Of a stretch of 46,944 bases of DNA, positions 1,873 to 11,141 are shown piece after piece (the stretch's first letter is position 1; the number at the start of each line of letters is the position of its first letter). Below the pieces are notes generated by a model. That model ran no database searches and was not told the DNA's origin. It worked only from the letters and a program-made list of their open reading frames with translations. Source of the stretch: Candidatus Adiutrix sp. (GTDB taxonomy: Bacteria; Desulfobacterota; Desulfarculia; Adiutricales; Adiutricaceae). The position numbers and the translations under genes were made by a program. The stretch covers positions 1 through 46,944 of the forward strand of contig JAISJK010000084.1 of assembly GCA_031261565.1 (NCBI GenBank), written 5' to 3'.

Positions 1873-3395
1873 TATTTGGCCAGGCTGCGCAAATGGGGAA
1901 AGAGAATGACGTCTTTGATGGTCGGGGCATCGGCCAGCAGCATGACCAGGCGGTCAATGCCCACGCCCTCGCCCCCGGCCGGGGGCATGCCATACATCAA
2001 AGCCCGGATATAGTCATCGTCCATATACATGCTTTCCTCGTCCCCGGCGGCCCGCTCAGCCACCTGGGCCTGAAAGCGGCCGCGCTGATCCAGGGGGTCG
2101 TTTAACTCGGAAAAGGCGTTGGCCAGTTCCCGGCCGGTGATGAAGAGCTCAAAACGGTCGGTCAGGTCGGGCTCGGCCTCGTTGCGCCGGGCCAGGGGGC
2201 TGATATCGGCCGGATAGTGGGTGATGAAGGTGGGGTTGATCAGCCTGGGCTCCACGGCCAGATCAAATATCTTGGCCAGCACCTTGCCGGCCACATCGTC
2301 GTCTGACTTCTCGCCGCCCAGCGATTTCAAAAAGGCCAGAGCCGCTTCACGGCTGGTCAAAACCTCGGCCGGGGCGCCGCCCAGTTCCACAATGGCCTGG
2401 CCGAAGCGCAGACGATGCCAGGGCCGGGCCAGACTGACCGGCGTGCCCTGATAGGTGAAGTCAGTGGCCCCGATGGCCTTTTCAGCCACGGCCACAAACA
2501 TTTCCTCAGTCAGATCCATCATGTCGCTGACGTCGGCGTAGCTCTGGTAAAACTCCATCATGGTGAATTCGGGGTTGTGCTGAATGCTGATGCCCTCGTT
2601 GCGGAAACTGCGGTTGATTTCAAAAACCCGGTCAAAGCCGCCCACCAGCAACCTTTTGAGGTAAAGCTCGGGGGCGATGCGCAGATACAGCTTGCGGTCG
2701 AGGGCCTGGTGAAAAGTCTCGAAAGGCCTGGCCGCAGCCCCGCCCGGGATGACGTGCATCATGGGCGTTTCCACCTCCACAAAACCTTTGGCGGTCATAA
2801 ACTCGCGCACCGCCGCCACAATTTTGGAGCGCAGGAGAAAGACCCGGCGGCTGTCTTCATTCATGATCAGATCTACATAGCGCTGGCGGTAGCGCATCTC
2901 GGTGTTGATCTCGTGGTATTTCTCCGGCAGGGGCCAGAGCCCTTTGGTCACCAGCTCCAGGCGGGAGACCAAAAGGGTCAGCTCGCCGGTTTTGGTTTTG
3001 AAGAGCCGGCCGGAAAGGCCCACAATATCGCCCAGATCCAGCTTTTTAAAGAGGTTGAAAGTTTCCTCGTCCACACCCTGCTTCCGCAGGTAGGCCTGCA
3101 TCCGGCCGCTGGAGTCGGCCAGATCAAAAAAAGCCGATTTGCCGTAATCCCGGCGGGCCATGATCCGGCCGGCCACGGTGAAAACATCGGCCAGGGTTTC
3201 AAAATCATCGTGCTCCAGGTGGCCGAAGCGCTCCCGCAGGGCCGCTGTCCTGTGCTCCGGGCGGAAGGTGTTGGGGTAGAGGTTCACCCCGCTTTCAGCC
3301 AGTTCCCTGGCCTTGTCAAAACGGGCCTGGATAACCGGGCCCGCCTCATTTTCATCTCTCTGGATATCTTCCGGAGTCTGCGCCAGATCAGTCAT
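1872..3395 (-). CDS. lysS: Lysyl-tRNA synthetase, class II
   Basis: Cytoplasmic enzyme that charges tRNA-Lys with lysine using ATP; 507 aa, normal for class II LysRS. An N-terminal OB-fold anticodon-binding domain lies at about residues 60-165 (VAGRIMARRDYGKSAFFDL). The three class II motifs follow: motif 1 around GFVEVETPMM, motif 2 FRNEGISIQHNPEFTMMEFY, and motif 3 GVGIDRLVMLLADAPTIKDV near the C-terminus. The start is the ATG at 3393-3395. The gene runs into lolC with a one-base overlap. The 67-bp gap upstream, before the end of the methyltransferase gene, is AT-rich and probably carries the promoter. Confidence 0.97.
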   Translation of the reverse strand: MTDLAQTPEDIQRDENEAGPVIQARFDKARELAESGVNLYPNTFRPEHRTAALRERFGHLEHDDFETLADVFTVAGRIMARRDYGKSAFFDLADSSGRMQAYLRKQGVDEETFNLFKKLDLGDIVGLSGRLFKTKTGELTLLVSRLELVTKGLWPLPEKYHEINTEMRYRQRYVDLIMNEDSRRVFLLRSKIVAAVREFMTAKGFVEVETPMMHVIPGGAAARPFETFHQALDRKLYLRIAPELYLKRLLVGGFDRVFEINRSFRNEGISIQHNPEFTMMEFYQSYADVSDMMDLTEEMFVAVAEKAIGATDFTYQGTPVSLARPWHRLRFGQAIVELGGAPAEVLTSREAALAFLKSLGGEKSDDDVAGKVLAKIFDLAVEPRLINPTFITHYPADISPLARRNEAEPDLTDRFELFITGRELANAFSELNDPLDQRGRFQAQVAERAAGDEESMYMDDDYIRALMYGMPPAGGEGVGIDRLVMLLADAPTIKDVILFPHLRSLAK

Positions 3396-3462
3396 AATTG
3401 GACATCCCTACCTTAAAAATTAGTAATTATGCACTTGACTTCCAACAAATTATAACTATCTC

Positions 3463-4713
3463 TTAATCACCGAAGAAAATCTTGCCCTTTTGCTTCTCCC
3501 TTGTGGCTATTTTCAAGCGCAAGTATTCCATTGGCCTGTCCCCCTTTATTCTATTACAAGAGCCACAGAGCAACTGGTAATTTTCGTAATAATCACCGCC
3601 ACCCTTTGACTTTGGAACTATGTGGTCAATTTCAAGGTTTCGGGCTTCAAATTGGTTGCCGCAGGCGTTGCACAACCCCCTTTGTTCTTTATATAGTTTT
3701 GTTTTTACTGGCTCCGAGGGCCGGACTTCTTTTAAATCAGTTCTTACCGGAGCTTTGTCAGTGGATATGAAAGCGTCAAAAAGAATTCCTTTAGCCAAAT
3801 TTAACCGTTGAATTAAAATATCATTTGTTTTGCTTTCAATATCAATGCCAATCCATTTACGGCCTAGTCTTTCAGCGCCAACGCAAGTAGTCGCGCATCC
3901 GCAAAATGGATCCATTACCAGGTCGCCTTCATTAGATGACGCCTTTATTATGCGTTTAAGTAAAACAAGCGGTTTCTGGGTGGGATAACCTGTCCGTTCT
4001 TTTTTATCCGATGGCATTAATGGTTGAACTGGCCACCAGTCTTCAGGATGCTTTCCTGATGGGTTTGGTCTATATCCGTCATAGACGCCTGAACTTCTAT
4101 ATGATTTGTCGTATCGGCTAGGATTGCTGTCCAGAACGTCAGACGAATAAGGAATTCTGACCTCATCAAGATTAAATGTATATTTGTTGCTCTTTGAATA
4201 ACGCAAAATTATATCGTGTTTTTTGGCAAAATCATTACGCGGAACCCCTCCACCGCGATAACACCAAACTATTTCATTTCGAAAATTATTTTTGTCAAAT
4301 ATAAAATCAAGGATGATTTTTAAATAGTGACCGGCCGTAGGGTTGCAATGCAAATAAAAAGTTCCTGTATTTTTTAAAACTCTGTGCATTTCAATTATCC
4401 GTTGCGCCATATAGGTTAAATAAGCCATCATTGACTTGCTATGACTAACAGCTACGCTTGAAATATACTTGGTCAACTCTGGGCATTTAACGGCCAGTGA
4501 ATCCAATCTATATTCATCAACATCCTTCCATGTCCACATATCTTTAAAACTGGCCCCTGCCGCCCTACTGCCTACCGGCGCGGAATACATCCTTTTAGAA
4601 TTAAAGGGCGGGTCAAGGTAGATCAAATCTACGAGTTCACTATTAAGCCCCAATAAAATATCCAAATTATCATTAATGTAAAGTGTATTTTTAAAATTTG
4701 ACTTAGCAAGCAT
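3463..4713 (-). CDS. Beta-class DNA amino-methyltransferase fused to a C-terminal HNH domain
   Basis: 416 aa. The N-terminal part is a site-specific DNA methyltransferase. The catalytic motif IV DPPF (residues 34-37) precedes the AdoMet-binding motif I DPFCGCAT (268-275), the beta-class order, so it should methylate N6-adenine or N4-cytosine. The region between, about 120-240, would hold target recognition. Residues 339-395 form an HNH zinc domain with CxxC pairs at 348/351 and 383/386 and the core IDHIVPKSKGG (362-372), so the protein may also nick or cut DNA, or the HNH may only bind it. The gene is clearly richer in A+T than everything around it, and no separate restriction gene lies beside it. 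It looks horizontally acquired. Specificity cannot be read from sequence alone. Confidence 0.87.
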   Translation of the reverse strand: MLAKSNFKNTLYINDNLDILLGLNSELVDLIYLDPPFNSKRMYSAPVGSRAAGASFKDMWTWKDVDEYRLDSLAVKCPELTKYISSVAVSHSKSMMAYLTYMAQRIIEMHRVLKNTGTFYLHCNPTAGHYLKIILDFIFDKNNFRNEIVWCYRGGGVPRNDFAKKHDIILRYSKSNKYTFNLDEVRIPYSSDVLDSNPSRYDKSYRSSGVYDGYRPNPSGKHPEDWWPVQPLMPSDKKERTGYPTQKPLVLLKRIIKASSNEGDLVMDPFCGCATTCVGAERLGRKWIGIDIESKTNDILIQRLNLAKGILFDAFISTDKAPVRTDLKEVRPSEPVKTKLYKEQRGLCNACGNQFEARNLEIDHIVPKSKGGGDYYENYQLLCGSCNRIKGDRPMEYLRLKIATREKQKGKIFFGD

Positions 4714-4865
4714 TTTAAATCTCTGACTTTAACATTAACATTAAAATAGCAATCCTATCAAGCGAATGATTGAATATATCCTTTAAATTATACTCCGGCG
4801 CCGGGGCCGCGTCAAGTTGCCCTGCCCGGGGCTTTGTGATATATTACCCCGAAAAGAGGTTTAAT

Positions 4866-5495
4866 ATGACACCCGGCCCCCGTAAACATCCGGCTTATTT
4901 TCTTCCGGCCCTGATTGTCCTCGGCTTGGGGCTCTCGGCCTGCGGCCGGGGGCCCTTCGCCCCCGAGGCTCTCCGCCAGTCGGCCGAGCTGGAACATTAC
5001 ACCCAGGTCTTGCAGTCGGCCCTGGTCGAGGATAAGACCTTTGAGTGGCAAACCCTGGCCTCGGCCCTCATTGTCCGGGCTCTGCCCTATTCCCCCCGCA
5101 TCAGCCGGGAAGCCCAAAGCCGCTTCGCCGGCGACCCCACATTTAATACTGAAGCCGGGGGCTGGGAGCGGCGGCCCAGCCGATCTTCCGGCCGGCCGGT
5201 GGTCATCCTGATGGGCGTCTTCGCCCCGGATCTGGCCGAGAAAGACATCACCAAGCTGGGCCGCTTTCGGCCCCGGCTGCACACCCCGTCCGGCCAGCGG
5301 CTGGAGCCGCTGGAAATCAAGCGTTTCGGCCGCGATGCGGTTTTTGTCCGCGACCATTTCCCGGTTTTTAACCCCTGGGAGGAAGTCTTCCTGGTGCGCT
5401 TCCCGGCCCCGGCCGGAGGCGGCGGGGCCGGGCCGCTCGACTTTAAGCTGGAGTGGCCGGGGGGGGTTCAGACCCTCGTTTTGAGCGGCGACTGA
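4866..5495 (+). CDS. Predicted outer-membrane or periplasmic lipoprotein of unknown function
   Basis: 209 aa. I chose the ATG at 4866 because AAAGAGG lies a few bases upstream and the resulting N-terminus is a lipoprotein signal: basic start (GPRKH), hydrophobic core, lipobox LSAC with the acylated Cys near residue 25. The frame is open further upstream to 4770, but that would bury the signal. The mature part has no domain I recognise. It is soluble and mixed alpha/beta in character, with a Gly/Ala/Pro-rich patch near the end. It sits 13 nt before the YkuD gene and opens the putative peptidoglycan-shape operon, so an accessory role at the cell wall is a reasonable inference. Confidence 0.75.
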   Translation: MTPGPRKHPAYFLPALIVLGLGLSACGRGPFAPEALRQSAELEHYTQVLQSALVEDKTFEWQTLASALIVRALPYSPRISREAQSRFAGDPTFNTEAGGWERRPSRSSGRPVVILMGVFAPDLAEKDITKLGRFRPRLHTPSGQRLEPLEIKRFGRDAVFVRDHFPVFNPWEEVFLVRFPAPAGGGGAGPLDFKLEWPGGVQTLVLSGD

Positions 5496-5508
5496 CCGCC
5501 CTTCAAAC

Positions 5509-7023
5509 ATGCTCCGGTATTTTTTTACGATAATGGCGCTGCTGCTGGCGCCGGCCGTCAGCCGGGCCTGGGCGGCGGACGAGGGGATGCTGCCCGATGC
5601 CCTGCTCTACCCCGGTTCCAAACCGGGCTATATTCTGGTGGTGGACAAGGCGGAGCAGATGCTCTATCTCTACCGCCACGATGGTGCCGGGAACATCGGC
5701 CTTGATCGGGTCATGCCCTGTTCCACTGGAGAGAACAAGGGCGACAAGATGACCGAGGGCGACAAAAAAACGCCCAACGGCTTTTATATTTTCAATCAAA
5801 AGCTCCTGCCCGCCGAGCTGGCCCCCATCTACGGCATACTGGCCTACCCCACCGACTACCCCAATTTCTGGGATAAAAAGCAGGGCCACGGCGGCCACGG
5901 CATCTGGATTCACGGCATCAACAAGCCCATGGTCAATTATGACTCCAATGGCTGCGTGGAGCTGGAAAACGCTGAAATCGCCCGGATGGAAGAGCTGATC
6001 CGCCTCTATGACACCCCTATGGTCATCTATGAAAGTCTAACCCTGGCCTCCCTGGAGGATCAGAAGGCCGAAGCCGAGGCCATCAAGTCCTTTGTCGAGA
6101 CCTGGCGCCGGGCCTGGGCGGCCAAAGACCACCAGACCTACCAGTCGCTCTACGACCCGACCTTCGTCAACTCCGATGACCGCTCATTCGCCGCCTGGAT
6201 GGCTCATAAAGTCAAAGTGGGCCAGGGCTACCGCTCCATCGGCGTGGAGCTCAAAGACCTGCGCATCTACCGCCACCGCGAGGTCATCGCCGTGCTCTTT
6301 GAACAGGATTACAGCGGCGACAAGCGCTTCGCTTCCATCGGCCTCAAGCGGCTCTATCTGAAAAAAAGCGGCCAGACCTACAAAATAGTGGGGGAGGATT
6401 ATCGGGACATGCCCGAAACCGAAACCCGCAAGTGGCTGACCGCCGAGGAAAAGCGACGGGCTATAGAAACACCGGCTATTAAAGCAACGCCGCCTCTTAT
6501 GGCGGCCAAAGCGCCGGAAAGCCCGGCCGCACCGGCTCCGCCCCCCGTTCCAGAGGCCACCCCCGAGCCGCCAGCCGCTGAAAAAGATGACCCGGCGGCC
6601 GCTGAAGCCCAGGCGGCGGCCAAAGCCAAAGCCGCCGCCGAGGGCCGGGCGGCTCGGGCGGCCCTGGAGGCCGAAATCAAGCCGGAAATCCTGGGCCTGG
6701 TCAACCAGTGGGCCGAAGCCTGGAGCCGCCGGGACTCGGCCGCCTATTTCCAGTTTTACCACCCTGATTTTTATTACCAGGCCAAAAAGCTGAACCTGGG
6801 CGGCTTCATCAAATACCGGCAACAGCTGATTGAGGAGGCGGACGAGATTGAGGTGCGCCTGTCGGCCATTGAAGTGCGCCTGATGAGCGCGGACACGGCC
6901 CGGGTCATTTTCCGCCAGGATTACCGCTCGGACAATACCCATGACCTGGGCCGCAAAACCCTGACCCTGAAAAAAACCGAATCCGGCTGGAAAATTGTGG
7001 CCGAAACCTGGAAGGCGGTTTAG
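5509..7023 (+). CDS. L,D-transpeptidase/carboxypeptidase-fold (YkuD) protein with two NTF2-like domains, Csd6/Pgp2-like
   Basis: 504 aa with an N-terminal signal peptide (cleavage near AWAAD, about residue 23). The YkuD domain at about 38-175 contains the catalytic His135 (GIWIHG) and Cys149 in DSNGCVEL. Two NTF2-like domains follow at about 185-300 and 393-504, joined by an Ala/Pro/Glu-rich linker (about 320-385). YkuD plus NTF2 is the architecture of Helicobacter Csd6, Campylobacter Pgp2 and Bdellovibrio Bd1075, periplasmic enzymes that trim peptidoglycan tetrapeptides and set cell curvature. Those proteins are generally described with one NTF2 domain, so the second copy and linker are unusual. 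The M14 gene two positions downstream supports an L,D-carboxypeptidase role, but transpeptidase activity cannot be excluded. Confidence 0.85.
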   Translation: MLRYFFTIMALLLAPAVSRAWAADEGMLPDALLYPGSKPGYILVVDKAEQMLYLYRHDGAGNIGLDRVMPCSTGENKGDKMTEGDKKTPNGFYIFNQKLLPAELAPIYGILAYPTDYPNFWDKKQGHGGHGIWIHGINKPMVNYDSNGCVELENAEIARMEELIRLYDTPMVIYESLTLASLEDQKAEAEAIKSFVETWRRAWAAKDHQTYQSLYDPTFVNSDDRSFAAWMAHKVKVGQGYRSIGVELKDLRIYRHREVIAVLFEQDYSGDKRFASIGLKRLYLKKSGQTYKIVGEDYRDMPETETRKWLTAEEKRRAIETPAIKATPPLMAAKAPESPAAPAPPPVPEATPEPPAAEKDDPAAAEAQAAAKAKAAAEGRAARAALEAEIKPEILGLVNQWAEAWSRRDSAAYFQFYHPDFYYQAKKLNLGGFIKYRQQLIEEADEIEVRLSAIEVRLMSADTARVIFRQDYRSDNTHDLGRKTLTLKKTESGWKIVAETWKAV

Positions 7024-7030
7024 CGGGCCC

Positions 7031-7828
7031 ATGGCCATAAAACACAAAGCATCCCGGGGGTGGCTGAATATCCTGGTGATTCGCCCTAAGGGGCCGGCCC
7101 TCAGTTTGGCTGTCCGGCCCCTGACCCTGTTTTTGGCCCTGTTATTGGGTGGCCTGACCCTGGCCGCCGCCCTGGCCGCCGGCCTTTACCTGGAGCTCTA
7201 TCCCCGCCATCAGGAGCTGGTCGCCGCCCACCAGGAGACAGTCCGGGAGTTGACCAGCCTCCGCAATCTCTACGATTATCAATACGCCGTGGCCGATGAT
7301 TACGCCCGGCTCCTGGGGGCCGTGGCCCGGCCGGATCCGGCCGAGGGCGGGGAGACCACCGCTCCCGCCCAGGATTTTATCCCCCAGGCCGCCTGGCCCA
7401 CTCCGCTGGATCCAGCCCCGCCTATCGCTGACCCCTCCGGCCGCACTCTGGAGAGCTGGAGCGACCTTTTGCCCAACCCGGCCTCGCCGCCGGAGCAGGA
7501 GCTTGACATTGAGCAGTTACACGCCGCCGGCCCGGATTTCAGCTTTCAATTGACCAACACCGGCCTGGGCCAGCAGGCTCAGGGCCGCCTCCTCCTGCTC
7601 TTCGCCGTCCAGACCGGGGGCCAGGGCCTTTTGGCGCCCTACCCCGACTTTGACGACCAGTCGCCCACGCCCGACTTTAGCCAGGGTCTGGGCTACAATA
7701 TCCGTTCCTCAAAAATTATCAAAGGCCGCCTCAACCTGCCAGCCGATGGGCAGATTGTGGCCATGACCGCCGTGGCCTTCACCCGTGGCGGCCAGGTCGT
7801 CCTGAAAAAGAAAATAGCCCCCCTATGA
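7031..7828 (+). CDS. Single-pass inner-membrane protein with periplasmic coiled coil, function unknown
   Basis: 265 aa. The ATG at 7031 (MAIKHKASRG) is chosen because the frame upstream of it lies inside the YkuD gene. A basic N-terminus precedes one long hydrophobic segment at about residues 35-62 (LTLFLALLLGGLTLAAAL). Then comes a short heptad-like stretch (ELVAAHQETVRELTSLRNLY), a Pro-rich linker and a C-terminal domain of about 100 residues that looks beta-rich. I do not recognise the family. The gene lies between Csd6-like and Csd4-like genes, with an 8-nt gap upstream and a 4-nt overlap downstream, so it is likely a membrane partner or scaffold for these periplasmic enzymes. That role is inferred from position only. 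Confidence 0.75.
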   Translation: MAIKHKASRGWLNILVIRPKGPALSLAVRPLTLFLALLLGGLTLAAALAAGLYLELYPRHQELVAAHQETVRELTSLRNLYDYQYAVADDYARLLGAVARPDPAEGGETTAPAQDFIPQAAWPTPLDPAPPIADPSGRTLESWSDLLPNPASPPEQELDIEQLHAAGPDFSFQLTNTGLGQQAQGRLLLLFAVQTGGQGLLAPYPDFDDQSPTPDFSQGLGYNIRSSKIIKGRLNLPADGQIVAMTAVAFTRGGQVVLKKKIAPL

Positions 7829-9783
7829 TCCCCAGACAGAGAGGTTCTGGCGCCTTAATGACCGTTCATACCATATATTCCAGGCTTTTGGCCGCTTGGC
7901 TGGCCTCAGCCCTGCTCTTTCTGGCCCCGGCCCCGGCCGAGGCCCAGGATCGCCAGCACCTGACCTACTGGGCCGGGACGCCCCAGGAAATAGAGGTTTT
8001 CAAAATACGCGGGCGCGAGCCCGGCCCCACGGTGCTGATCATCGGCGGCATTCAGGGCGATGAGCCGGGCGGCTATCTGAGCGCCGACCGCTATGTGGAT
8101 CTGGAGCTGAAACGGGGCAATCTCATTGTGGTGCCCCGGGCCAATTTCAAATCCATTGTCCTGTCCGACCGGGGGCCGGACGGCGACATGAACCGCAAAT
8201 TCAACATCGACCTGGCCCGGGATCCGGACAGGAATATTGTGGAAACCCTGAAAGGTCTGATGGCCGAGAGCGATCTGGTGCTCAACCTCCACGACGGCTC
8301 CGGCTTTTACCGCCCCACCCATGAAAGTGAAACGGCCAATCCTCACCGCTATGGCCAGTGCATCATCGCCGACGCCGAGGTCTTCACCCACCCGGCCTCC
8401 GGCCGCATCATCCCCCTCAAGGATTACGCCGAAGACGCGGTGCGCCGGGTCAATCAGGATATTGACAACCCCGCCTATAAATTCCACTTCGCCAACCACA
8501 ACACCTCGGCCACCGACAGCCTGCACAAAGAACAGCGCGGCAGCGTCACCTATTACGCCCTGACCCAGTTGGGCATCCCCGCCTTCGGGATTGAAACTTC
8601 CAAGAGCCTGCCCTCGGTGGAGATGAAAGTTTACCAGCACAATCTGGCGGTCAACGCCTTTCTGAAAATTTTCGAGGTGGAGCCGGAACAGCCCGGTCTG
8701 CTCTTGGAGCCCCCGCTCCTGAGCTACCTCCTGGTCTCGGTGGAGGGCGGGCCGCCCCTGGCCGTGGCCGATGGCCAGACCCTTCAGGTGGCCCGGGGCC
8801 AGAGGCTGGAAGTCCTCCACATCGCGGCCAACTATGACCGGGGCCTGTCCGTGGCCCGCCAGGGCTCCGGCAGTTTCAACGACCTCGGCCGGCCCCTGGT
8901 CATTGACCAGCCTGCGGTGTTAGTGGCGCGAAAAGACAGCGCTACCTTGGGCCGCTTCACCGTCAGTCTGCTGCCGCCGGAGGAGGCCGGCCTCTCCCCC
9001 CGCTTAAGCGGCCAGGCTAAAATCCTCCCCCCCCGGGCCGGGTGGCCGGTGGCCACCCCCAGCCAAGCCGCCGCCTCATCGCCGCCTGAGACCGATGTTT
9101 CGGTGAGCCGGCCCATAACTCTGCCGATCCCGCCCGCCATGGCCAAGCCCGAGCCGGAAGCGGCGGAGGTGGCCGCCGTTGGCCAGGTGACCGGATTTAT
9201 CCTGGAAGTGGACGGCCGGCCGGTGGAGCTGGCCCCCGGGGCCCAGTTGGAGGTTCTGACCGGCTCCCTGGTCAAAATGGTTGACCTGAAGAGCGAGGGG
9301 CCCCTGCCGGCTAAAACGGCCATTAATCTGCGCGGCTTTGTCCCCAGGGACAAGCGGGATAAAAACAATGGCGATGACCGGGGCTTCACCGCCGACACCG
9401 GACGGGATATGATGGACGCTTTTTCGCTGGGCCAGAAGGGTCAGGTCTATCCGCTCAACGCCGAGTTCGGCCAGAAAGTGCTGGCCTCGGCCAGCCTCAA
9501 AATCGTCAAGCCGGCCTTGGCCGCCATCACCGTGGAGCTGAACGGCCAGAGCCACCGGCTCAAGCCCTGGGGCCGGCTGGGCGTCCCTACCGGCGGCCCG
9601 GTCACCATCACGGCTGTGGAGCTGGCCGGCGGCCGGCCCCTGAGCAACCCCCGCTTCACTCTGGGGGGGAAGCCCTTTGATCCGGATTTGCCCCAGACCC
9701 TGACCATGCCCAATTTTAACGCCAACCTGGCCGTTTTTAACGGGGAGGAACTGGCCGGCAAAGTCACCCTGGTGGCCAAGTGA
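7825..9783 (+). CDS. M14-family zinc carboxypeptidase, Csd4/Pgp1-like
   Basis: 652 aa, secreted (hydrophobic segment about 20-35, cleavage near AEAQ). The zinc motif is QGDE (Gln77, Glu80) rather than the usual HxxE. The third ligand is His156 in LNLHDG, the substrate-binding pair NR is at 123-124, and the catalytic Glu257 lies in FGIETSKS. Gln as a zinc ligand is a known feature of Helicobacter Csd4, the D,L-carboxypeptidase that cuts muramyl tripeptide to dipeptide and makes cells helical. After the catalytic domain come about 380 residues of likely beta-rich repeats (about 290-370, 450-550, 560-650) around a Pro-rich linker. The ATG at 7825 overlaps the previous stop (ATGA); an alternative ATG at 7858 gives a cleaner signal peptide. 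Confidence 0.88.
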   Translation: MIPRQRGSGALMTVHTIYSRLLAAWLASALLFLAPAPAEAQDRQHLTYWAGTPQEIEVFKIRGREPGPTVLIIGGIQGDEPGGYLSADRYVDLELKRGNLIVVPRANFKSIVLSDRGPDGDMNRKFNIDLARDPDRNIVETLKGLMAESDLVLNLHDGSGFYRPTHESETANPHRYGQCIIADAEVFTHPASGRIIPLKDYAEDAVRRVNQDIDNPAYKFHFANHNTSATDSLHKEQRGSVTYYALTQLGIPAFGIETSKSLPSVEMKVYQHNLAVNAFLKIFEVEPEQPGLLLEPPLLSYLLVSVEGGPPLAVADGQTLQVARGQRLEVLHIAANYDRGLSVARQGSGSFNDLGRPLVIDQPAVLVARKDSATLGRFTVSLLPPEEAGLSPRLSGQAKILPPRAGWPVATPSQAAASSPPETDVSVSRPITLPIPPAMAKPEPEAAEVAAVGQVTGFILEVDGRPVELAPGAQLEVLTGSLVKMVDLKSEGPLPAKTAINLRGFVPRDKRDKNNGDDRGFTADTGRDMMDAFSLGQKGQVYPLNAEFGQKVLASASLKIVKPALAAITVELNGQSHRLKPWGRLGVPTGGPVTITAVELAGGRPLSNPRFTLGGKPFDPDLPQTLTMPNFNANLAVFNGEELAGKVTLVAK

Positions 9784-11141
9784 GCGATCTGCGGCTGCCC
9801 CGGGCGGCCGTGCTGACCCTGGGCTGCAAGGTCAACCAGTTTGAATCCACAGCCCTGGCCGAGAGTCTGACGGCTGCCGGCTATCAGGTGGTGGATCAAC
9901 CCCTGGGCGTGGATCTGGTGGTGCTGAATACCTGCACCGTGACCACCAGGGCTGATCAAGAATCTCTGGCCCTTTTGCGGCGGCTGGCCCGCCTGTCGCC
10001 CGGAGCCAAAATTGTGGCCACCGGCTGCCTGGCCCAGGCCAACCCTGATTTACTGGCCGAGACCGGCCTGGTGCATCTGGTGCTGGGCCAGGCTGAAAAA
10101 ACAGACCTCGTTGGCCACTTGGCCCGCCCGGGTCAGCCGGGCGGACTGATCCGGGTGGCCCCGCTGGCGGAGCTGGCGGGTGGAGCAGCGGCTGACTTTG
10201 GCGCTCCGACCCCGGCCCGCACCCGGGCTTTTTACAAAATTCAGGATGGCTGCGCCGCCTTTTGCGCCTACTGCGCCGTCCCCCTGTCCCGAGGGCCGTC
10301 CCGCAGCCTGAATCTGGATCAGGCCCTGGAGGGCCTGCGCCACTACCTGGGGCTAGGCCTGACCGAAGTGGTACTCTGCGGCATCCACCTGGGCCGCTGG
10401 GGCTGGGATTTAAACCCGCCTCTGACCCTGGCCGACCTTTTGCACACCATTGAAGCTGAGCTGACCCCGGATCCGGAAGCTTTCCGCCTTCGCCTCAGTT
10501 CCATCGAGCCGCTGGAGCTGGACGAGGAAGTGCTGGCCGCCTACGAGATGTATGACTGGCTGGCTCCCCATTTCCACCTGCCCCTCCAGAGCGGCAGCGA
10601 CCGCCTGCTGGAGCTGATGGGCCGGCCCTACACGACCGGCCATTTCCAGGGCCTGGTGGAGCGGCTCCACAGCGCCTGGCCCCTGGCCGGGGTGGGGGTG
10701 GATATCATGGCCGGCTTTCCCGGGGAAAACGAGGCTGATTTCCAGGCCACCTATGACCTCCTGAGCGCTTTGCCCCTCAGTTATTTCCACGTCTTCCCCT
10801 ACTCGCCCCGGCCCGGCACCCGGGCGGCCACTTTTCCCGGCCAGGTGCCTGAGCCCCTCAAGCAGAGCCGCGCCCGGGAACTAAAGCAGCTGAGCCAGCT
10901 CAAGCGCCGGGCTTTTGCCGAAGCCAACCTCGGCCAGACCCAGACCGGCCTGGTGGAAAACACCCCCCACCGCCCCAGCGGGCGGCTCAAGGCGCTGACC
11001 GGCAACTACCTGGCGGCCCTCCTGCCCGAGGGCTTGAGCCGTCTCCCGGCCGGAGCCCTCCTGCCCGTCCGCCTCTCGGCCGCCCGCAACCCCTGGGGCC
11101 TTCTGGAAGCTGAGCCTCTGGGCCTGAACCGCTTGACCTGA
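9780..11141 (+). CDS. mtaB: tRNA t6A37 methylthiotransferase MtaB
   Basis: Radical SAM enzyme that converts t6A at position 37 of certain tRNAs to ms2t6A in the cytoplasm. 453 aa, normal for the family. The N-terminal UPF0004 domain carries three cluster cysteines: Cys16 (TLGCKVNQ), Cys52 (NTCTVT) and Cys83 (ATGCLAQ). The radical SAM motif CxxxCxxC is Cys158, Cys162 and Cys165 (DGCAAFCAYC). TLGCKVNQ and the following FES point to MtaB rather than MiaB or RimO. The GTG start at 9780 overlaps the M14 stop (GTGA). It probably shares a transcript with the shape genes, although the functions look unrelated. Confidence 0.93.
   Translation: MSDLRLPRAAVLTLGCKVNQFESTALAESLTAAGYQVVDQPLGVDLVVLNTCTVTTRADQESLALLRRLARLSPGAKIVATGCLAQANPDLLAETGLVHLVLGQAEKTDLVGHLARPGQPGGLIRVAPLAELAGGAAADFGAPTPARTRAFYKIQDGCAAFCAYCAVPLSRGPSRSLNLDQALEGLRHYLGLGLTEVVLCGIHLGRWGWDLNPPLTLADLLHTIEAELTPDPEAFRLRLSSIEPLELDEEVLAAYEMYDWLAPHFHLPLQSGSDRLLELMGRPYTTGHFQGLVERLHSAWPLAGVGVDIMAGFPGENEADFQATYDLLSALPLSYFHVFPYSPRPGTRAATFPGQVPEPLKQSRARELKQLSQLKRRAFAEANLGQTQTGLVENTPHRPSGRLKALTGNYLAALLPEGLSRLPAGALLPVRLSAARNPWGLLEAEPLGLNRLT

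Follow-up and report, generated by a model that had tools for sequence, protein, structure and literature searches.

A putative LmdC-like tether encoded between Csd6-type and M99 cell wall carboxypeptidases in Candidatus Adiutrix, with bactofilin as a neighbour in relatives

We describe a four-gene operon at positions 4866-9783, on the forward strand, of a 46,944-nucleotide stretch of DNA from Candidatus Adiutrix sp. (the whole stretch, contig JAISJK010000084.1, is called the window below; it is a single contig of a 2.24-Mb draft genome). The operon encodes, in this order, a lipoprotein, a YkuD enzyme of the Csd6/Pgp2/Bd1075 type, a bitopic membrane protein and an M99 carboxypeptidase. In our opinion, it is moderately likely that these genes serve local editing of the cell wall, probably for curvature: the membrane protein would be a tether that joins the Csd6-type L,D-carboxypeptidase to bactofilin, and the M99 enzyme would trim the product. 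A preliminary description of this DNA, made from the letters and translations, had already recognised a tight operon of Csd6-like and Csd4-like enzymes with a lipoprotein and an unknown membrane protein, and the open reading frames, their spacing and the domain matches agree with it. What it overlooked is the likeness of the membrane protein's tail to that of LmdC, together with bactofilin, the neighbour which relatives have and the window lacks.

The genes are indeed closely packed. The lipoprotein and YkuD genes are 13 bp apart, the YkuD and membrane-protein genes 7 bp, and the membrane-protein and M99 genes overlap by 4 bp, the M99 start ATG at 7825 sitting within the membrane-protein stop (M99 could also start from the ATG at 7858, further inside the gene). 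Our survey covered 395 genomes of the phylum. M99 was found in 72 of them and 73 M99 loci were read; a YkuD gene adjoins M99 at 48 of these loci, and at 43 of the 48 the membrane protein or its domain is present, always in the order YkuD, membrane protein, M99. Given that so many YkuD-M99 loci keep the same order, the operon is far beyond chance. This core of three genes spans about 20 families, its order fixed throughout, and the membrane protein at 7031, proposed earlier as a candidate partner of the enzymes, has a conserved place in it. The earlier prediction of a module dedicated to this lineage has to be given up, because the core is spread over the phylum and only the lipoprotein is nearly restricted to the lineage. 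Across the same 395 genomes, Cds6_C, the NTF2-like domain of the YkuD enzyme, accompanies the membrane protein (counted as present at E <= 1e-20) in 58 of 70 genomes and M99 in 67 of 72, with p values of about 2e-31 and about 1e-45, neither of them corrected for relatedness. In one family (f41; L294-L296) YkuD and the membrane protein form a pair, while M99 stands alone elsewhere and belongs to the clade of Helicobacter pylori Csd4; the pair is therefore wider than its link to M99.

It is the membrane protein that suggests how the enzymes might be placed. AlphaFold2 predicts (mean predicted local distance difference test score, pLDDT, 88) a hairpin, a transmembrane helix running into a coil, a linker and a periplasmic immunoglobulin (Ig)-like sandwich. 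Its tail resembles that of LmdC, an M23 endopeptidase which is encoded beside bactofilin and recruited by it via a conserved cytoplasmic beta-hairpin; mutations of the LmdC hairpin abolish the recruitment of LmdC by bactofilin at the inner curve of Rhodospirillum rubrum (PMC10945521). When a profile of M23-protein (LmdC) tails from the window's class was aligned by hhalign with a profile of membrane-protein tails, the probability was 95.7 and the score 29.7, as compared with a maximum score of 13.8 in 300 column shuffles and a probability of 0.3% for the reversed tail. Used as a hidden Markov model (HMM) on 14,705 open reading frames, the LmdC-tail profile had the membrane protein as every one of its top 11 matches outside M23 proteins. 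In the opposite direction, the membrane-protein profile has weak, N-terminal-only matches in whole genomes, and these proved to be M23 peptidases at 16 of the 17 loci fetched, five of the 16 adjoining bactofilin; the seventeenth locus holds a short hairpin protein next to bactofilin. From the profile alignment and these reciprocal matches we conclude that the LmdC-like M23 proteins and the membrane protein share a tail and differ in the head.

No match to the M23 domain (PF01551) was obtained for the membrane protein, which has the Ig-like sandwich in its place; hence we say that the protein works like LmdC, and not that it is an LmdC. A structure search with the head returned generic Ig/FN3-like sandwiches only (best Z 8.2), at the level of chance arrangements. 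Pfam gave nothing above chance for the membrane protein in any of 49 relatives, and the NCBIfam and PDB searches produced no family for it or for the lipoprotein. The label DUF6776 (PF20567), considered as a name for the membrane protein, was not listed for the 49 relatives nor seen in 21 genomes, in searches where the control also gave no match.

There are also other proteins with related tails, and a variant of the membrane-protein gene itself. At L282 (G232, 2419-3516) a 180-residue protein consists of the hairpin-transmembrane-coil tail, has no M23 domain and lies beside bactofilin; it is possibly a third, headless type of tether. This tail is also present on an LmdC-like M23 peptidase of the window's own genome (G000:C115:3082-3366, L232), which is not encoded near the sole bactofilin of that genome. 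At L126 (G433, 2701-4143) the membrane-protein gene is tandemly duplicated, the second copy being devoid of the hairpin and transmembrane part.

The second line of evidence comes from the gene neighbourhood. Bactofilin is encoded within 1.5 kb and on the same strand at 17 of the 48 survey loci, in nine families, following M99 in 13 cases and preceding YkuD in four; it is likewise present at 35 of the 80 named loci, among them that of Desulfocarbo indianensis (L185). In the sister family of the window's own (f2), all five M99-bearing genomes have bactofilin a few bases past the M99 stop or overlapping the extent of the open reading frame. The arrangement also occurs without M99: in genus g6, where M99 is missing from all six genomes searched, three loci (L131, L132, L146) keep YkuD, membrane protein and bactofilin, and L310 does the same. 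In five genomes (L298, L303, L304, L305, L309) the unit is the membrane protein and bactofilin alone.

Thirdly, three loci (L067, L068, L069) encode a YkuD-NTF2 protein whose C-terminal part is the Ig-like head of the membrane protein (E about 1e-28, with a head profile that was built excluding these three), and at all three bactofilin is the upstream gene. Gene fusions are classical evidence that the fused parts act together.

The identity of the YkuD enzyme is well delineated. Pfam recognises PF03734 (2.8e-17) and Cds6_C (PF24125, 1.4e-36), and the closest solved structures are those of Bd1075 (7o21, 3e-48), Csd6 (4xzz, 2.7e-28) and Pgp2 (6xj6, 8.5e-24), all three of them L,D-carboxypeptidases on which a curved or helical cell shape depends (PMC8938487, PMC3961634). 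With these the window's enzyme has in common the YkuD and Cds6_C NTF2 domains, the catalytic His and Cys (His135 and Cys149) and the lack of Arg two residues past the catalytic Cys, where it carries Glu151. An Arg at that position is typical of L,D-transpeptidases (PMC8938487), and in the 110 distinct YkuD relatives scored the residue is never Arg; it is V, E, A, S or T instead. Unlike Csd6, Pgp2 and Bd1075, which have one NTF2 domain, the window's enzyme has two, and it shares its operon with M99 and a putative tether. We infer from these features that it acts as an L,D-carboxypeptidase which converts tetrapeptides to tripeptides. Four genomes of family f31 (G030, G130, G311, G347) have no M99 and show between three and six matches to Cds6_C (NTF2) each, which we read as an expansion of Csd6-type enzymes.

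The last gene of the four encodes a Peptidase_M99 protein (PF17033, 9.9e-40; Csd4 structures 4wck and 4q6m at about 1e-31) with the metal-ligand motif Gln66/Glu69/His145 and a conserved Glu246, numbered from the 7858 start. The QxxE and H ligands are invariant across 22 operon-type M99 sequences, and the metal-ligand and Glu motifs are complete in 132 of 151 sequences. The catalytic domain with its QxxE/H motif and a conserved ExSK are shared with Csd4 and Pgp1, from which the window's protein differs by a long C-terminal extension and by its position in the tree. Among 89 M99 domains the operon-type proteins form their own clade, whereas H. pylori Csd4 (included as a fragment only, on a long branch) groups with stand-alone M99s of the phylum with a split support of 100/100; both types coexist in two genomes of one family. 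Since the tree separates the clades, we call the protein an M99 carboxypeptidase and regard orthology with Csd4 or Pgp1 as unsupported. The preliminary label of a Csd4-like enzyme is right as to the enzyme type, whose diagnostic active-site residues are present, and does not extend to membership in the clade of H. pylori Csd4. The predicted activity is that of a D,L-carboxypeptidase that turns tripeptides into dipeptides.

Put together, these observations suggest the following mechanism. The membrane protein would bind a bactofilin filament through its cytoplasmic hairpin, in the manner of LmdC. Its transmembrane helix and coil would cross the inner membrane, and the Ig-like head would hold or position the YkuD enzyme in the periplasm. 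YkuD would trim tetrapeptide stems to tripeptides and M99 would then trim these to dipeptides, in the way that the product of Pgp2 feeds Pgp1 in Campylobacter (PMC3961634). Stem trimming on one side of the cell would alter local wall growth, and the cell would bend. The nearest known system is the bactofilin-LmdC module of Hyphomonas neptunium and R. rubrum, which is similar in its bactofilin neighbour, hairpin, transmembrane helix and periplasmic coil, in periplasmic wall hydrolysis and, for R. rubrum, in curvature (PMC10945521). However, the head of LmdC is an M23 domain, whereas that of the membrane protein is Ig-like, with no recognised enzyme, the hydrolases being the separate Csd6-type and M99 proteins; the LmdC module also has an adjacent bactofilin, which the window's family lacks. 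Csd7 and Csd5 of H. pylori offer another parallel in their role: there, too, a transmembrane partner without enzymatic activity of its own connects a wall hydrolase with the bactofilin CcmA (PMC9507126), but Csd7 serves the M23 enzyme Csd1 and not the carboxypeptidases.

Several facts weigh against this mechanism. No bactofilin gene adjoins the operon in the window or elsewhere in the window's family (f1). An unlinked bactofilin is carried by 29 of the 37 genomes of that family; the only one in the window's genome (G000:C124:26552-26830, L124) has a neighbourhood without shape genes, and in the tree it does not group with the operon bactofilins but falls into another clade. The idea that it is a displaced operon copy was dropped on account of this placement. 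As the family has no adjacent bactofilin, its scaffold would have to be the unlinked G000:C124 bactofilin or something else. Further, the fusion loci L067 and L069 have no separate membrane protein and thus no hairpin, although bactofilin is adjacent; the hairpin therefore seems dispensable in some versions. For Csd6 of H. pylori, no contact with the bactofilin complex is known (PMC9507126), and the tethering proposed here would therefore be a different wiring. The genomes in which the LmdC-tail HMM matched the membrane protein are few and related, and many members of the membrane-protein family have low scores when taken one by one. At several checked loci the membrane protein has neither a nearby bactofilin nor a detected YkuD; these, with the five genomes that pair it with bactofilin only, led us to drop the idea that it always accompanies YkuD. 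Finally, cell shape was checked for one carrier only, D. indianensis, a cultured bacterium which carries all four of YkuD, membrane protein, M99 and bactofilin and is vibrio-shaped (PMC4559730).

This last point bears on what the editing is for. There is a lesser chance, which we would still take seriously, that bactofilin-controlled wall editing serves another trait: the width of the cell, growth at the poles or at mid-cell, or something like a stalk. Bactofilin-LmdC modules are responsible for curvature in Rhodospirillum, but in Hyphomonas for the formation of stalk and bud (PMC10945521), and the carriers of the operon are highly diverse. Against this, the helical or curved shape is lost in every one of the Csd4, Csd6, Pgp1, Pgp2 and Bd1075 mutants (PMC8938487, PMC3961634, PMC9507126), pgp1 is reported to be conserved chiefly among bacteria of curved or helical form, and the named carrier examined is, as said, a vibrio.

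The lipoprotein raises a different question, that of a link to the outer membrane. Its lipobox LSAC with Cys26 is invariant across 22 lipoprotein relatives, and the predicted structure is a helix with an Ig-like sandwich (pLDDT 90). Pfam gave no match for it, and a structure search returned generic Ig/FN3-like sandwiches here as well, the best (Z 8.1) being 3fjv (a protein of unknown function), at the level of chance arrangements. The protein is nearly limited to the window's family and order, with weak relatives at L133, L175 and L182, and in the family it is encoded by the first gene of the operon, upstream of YkuD. In the mechanism that we prefer it may be a family-specific envelope accessory, and we can only guess that it perhaps ties the complex to the outer membrane. 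One could instead imagine general wall maturation or outer-membrane attachment, in which a DpaA/LdtF-like YkuD enzyme releases or attaches an envelope protein, with the lipoprotein as its client and no cytoskeletal link. We find this improbable. The near confinement of the lipoprotein to a family where no bactofilin adjoins would fit, and so would a weak similarity of the YkuD enzyme to the amidase model NF040599; but with 33.8 bits it does not reach that model's cutoff of 365, its NTF2 domains and best matches point to Csd6, Pgp2 and Bd1075, the conserved companions M99 and membrane protein would be left without a role, and the folded Ig-like domain of the lipoprotein is unlike the small helical Lpp. 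More doubtful still is that YkuD is an L,D-transpeptidase forming 3-3 cross-links, with M99 limiting its substrate: the transpeptidase fold is indeed that of a YkuD domain bearing His and Cys, but cross-linking, which the preliminary description itself named as the outcome that would speak against its curvature module, is disfavoured because the typical Arg is replaced in the window's enzyme and in all 110 relatives, and relatives of the same NTF2 architecture have been shown to be carboxypeptidases (PMC8938487, PMC3961634).

We return to the tethering that we favour. Modules of bactofilin with an M23 enzyme are already known, as are the Csd/Pgp enzymes; an operon joining bactofilin with Csd6-type and M99 carboxypeptidases via an M23-less, LmdC-like tether is something for which we found no description in the open-access papers searched. 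That the membrane protein founds a novel adaptor family, an LmdC chassis with an Ig-like head which recruits Csd6-type and then M99 carboxypeptidases to bactofilin, is in our estimate an evenly balanced proposition. If true, bactofilin would rely on a single kind of docking hairpin whose head can vary, being either an M23 endopeptidase or an Ig-like domain that recruits carboxypeptidases. It could also account for the one-sided placement of curvature enzymes, and so bear on the steering of the stem-peptide carboxypeptidases that set helical shape in Helicobacter and Campylobacter. A concrete, testable physical link is offered by the operon together with the relatives that have bactofilin and the naturally occurring fusion, and some members of the group are vibrioid and in culture.

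Two genomes are informative about loss. In G377, of the window's genus, YkuD is intact and the membrane-protein gene is truncated with in-frame stops (L125, 5456-7409), and M99 and bactofilin were not found in this genome, which is 91% complete; this is an apparent step in the loss of the module, and the parallel loss of these genes speaks for the reading that we prefer. M99, membrane protein and bactofilin were not detectable in G409, a genome only 83% complete.

The coordinates are collected in the table.

Table. Features of the operon and its borders in the window
Feature	Position	Strand	Evidence
Putative promoter TTGCCC-17-TATATT, TG ahead of second hexamer	4817..4845	+	consensus scan alone
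Lipoprotein, 209 amino acids, lipobox Cys26, predicted helix and beta-sandwich	4866..5495	+	sequence, model
Periplasmic YkuD enzyme of the Csd6/Pgp2/Bd1075 type, two NTF2-like domains	5509..7023	+	PF03734, PF24125, PDB matches
YkuD catalytic domain, residues 41-172	5629..6024	+	Pfam
First Cds6_C/NTF2 domain, residues 192-296	6082..6396	+	Pfam
Second Cds6_C/NTF2 domain	6688..7005	+	Cds6_C 1.1e-17 in whole-genome search; also DUF4440/SnoaL
Bitopic membrane protein, 265 amino acids, candidate tether	7031..7828	+	AlphaFold2, conserved gene order
Predicted cytoplasmic beta-hairpin, residues 12-28, LmdC-tail-like	7064..7114	+	AlphaFold2, profile comparison
Predicted long helix, residues 30-98: transmembrane segment (from about residue 31) and coil	7118..7324	+	AlphaFold2
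Predicted Ig-like beta-sandwich head, residues 158-262	7502..7816	+	AlphaFold2
Peptidase_M99 (Csd4-like) carboxypeptidase, operon-type clade	7825 or 7858..9783	+	PF17033, active-site motif, tree
mtaB-like tRNA methylthiotransferase	9780..11141	+	overlaps M99, kept there in window's family

The window's bacterial group occurs in termite guts. Just 5' of the operon, the site at 4817-4845 is suggestive of a promoter, and AAGAGG precedes the lipoprotein ATG. At the other end, a fifth gene, mtaB-like, shares 4 bp with the M99 stop. In the window's family it occupies the position after M99 that bactofilin holds in other families, and it is probably a passenger of the operon. Divergent from the operon, on the reverse strand at 3463-4713, lies a gene for a DNA methylase (N6_N4_Mtase) fused with an HNH endonuclease domain; the G+C content around it is 0.52-0.54, against about 0.62, and the gene looks acquired.

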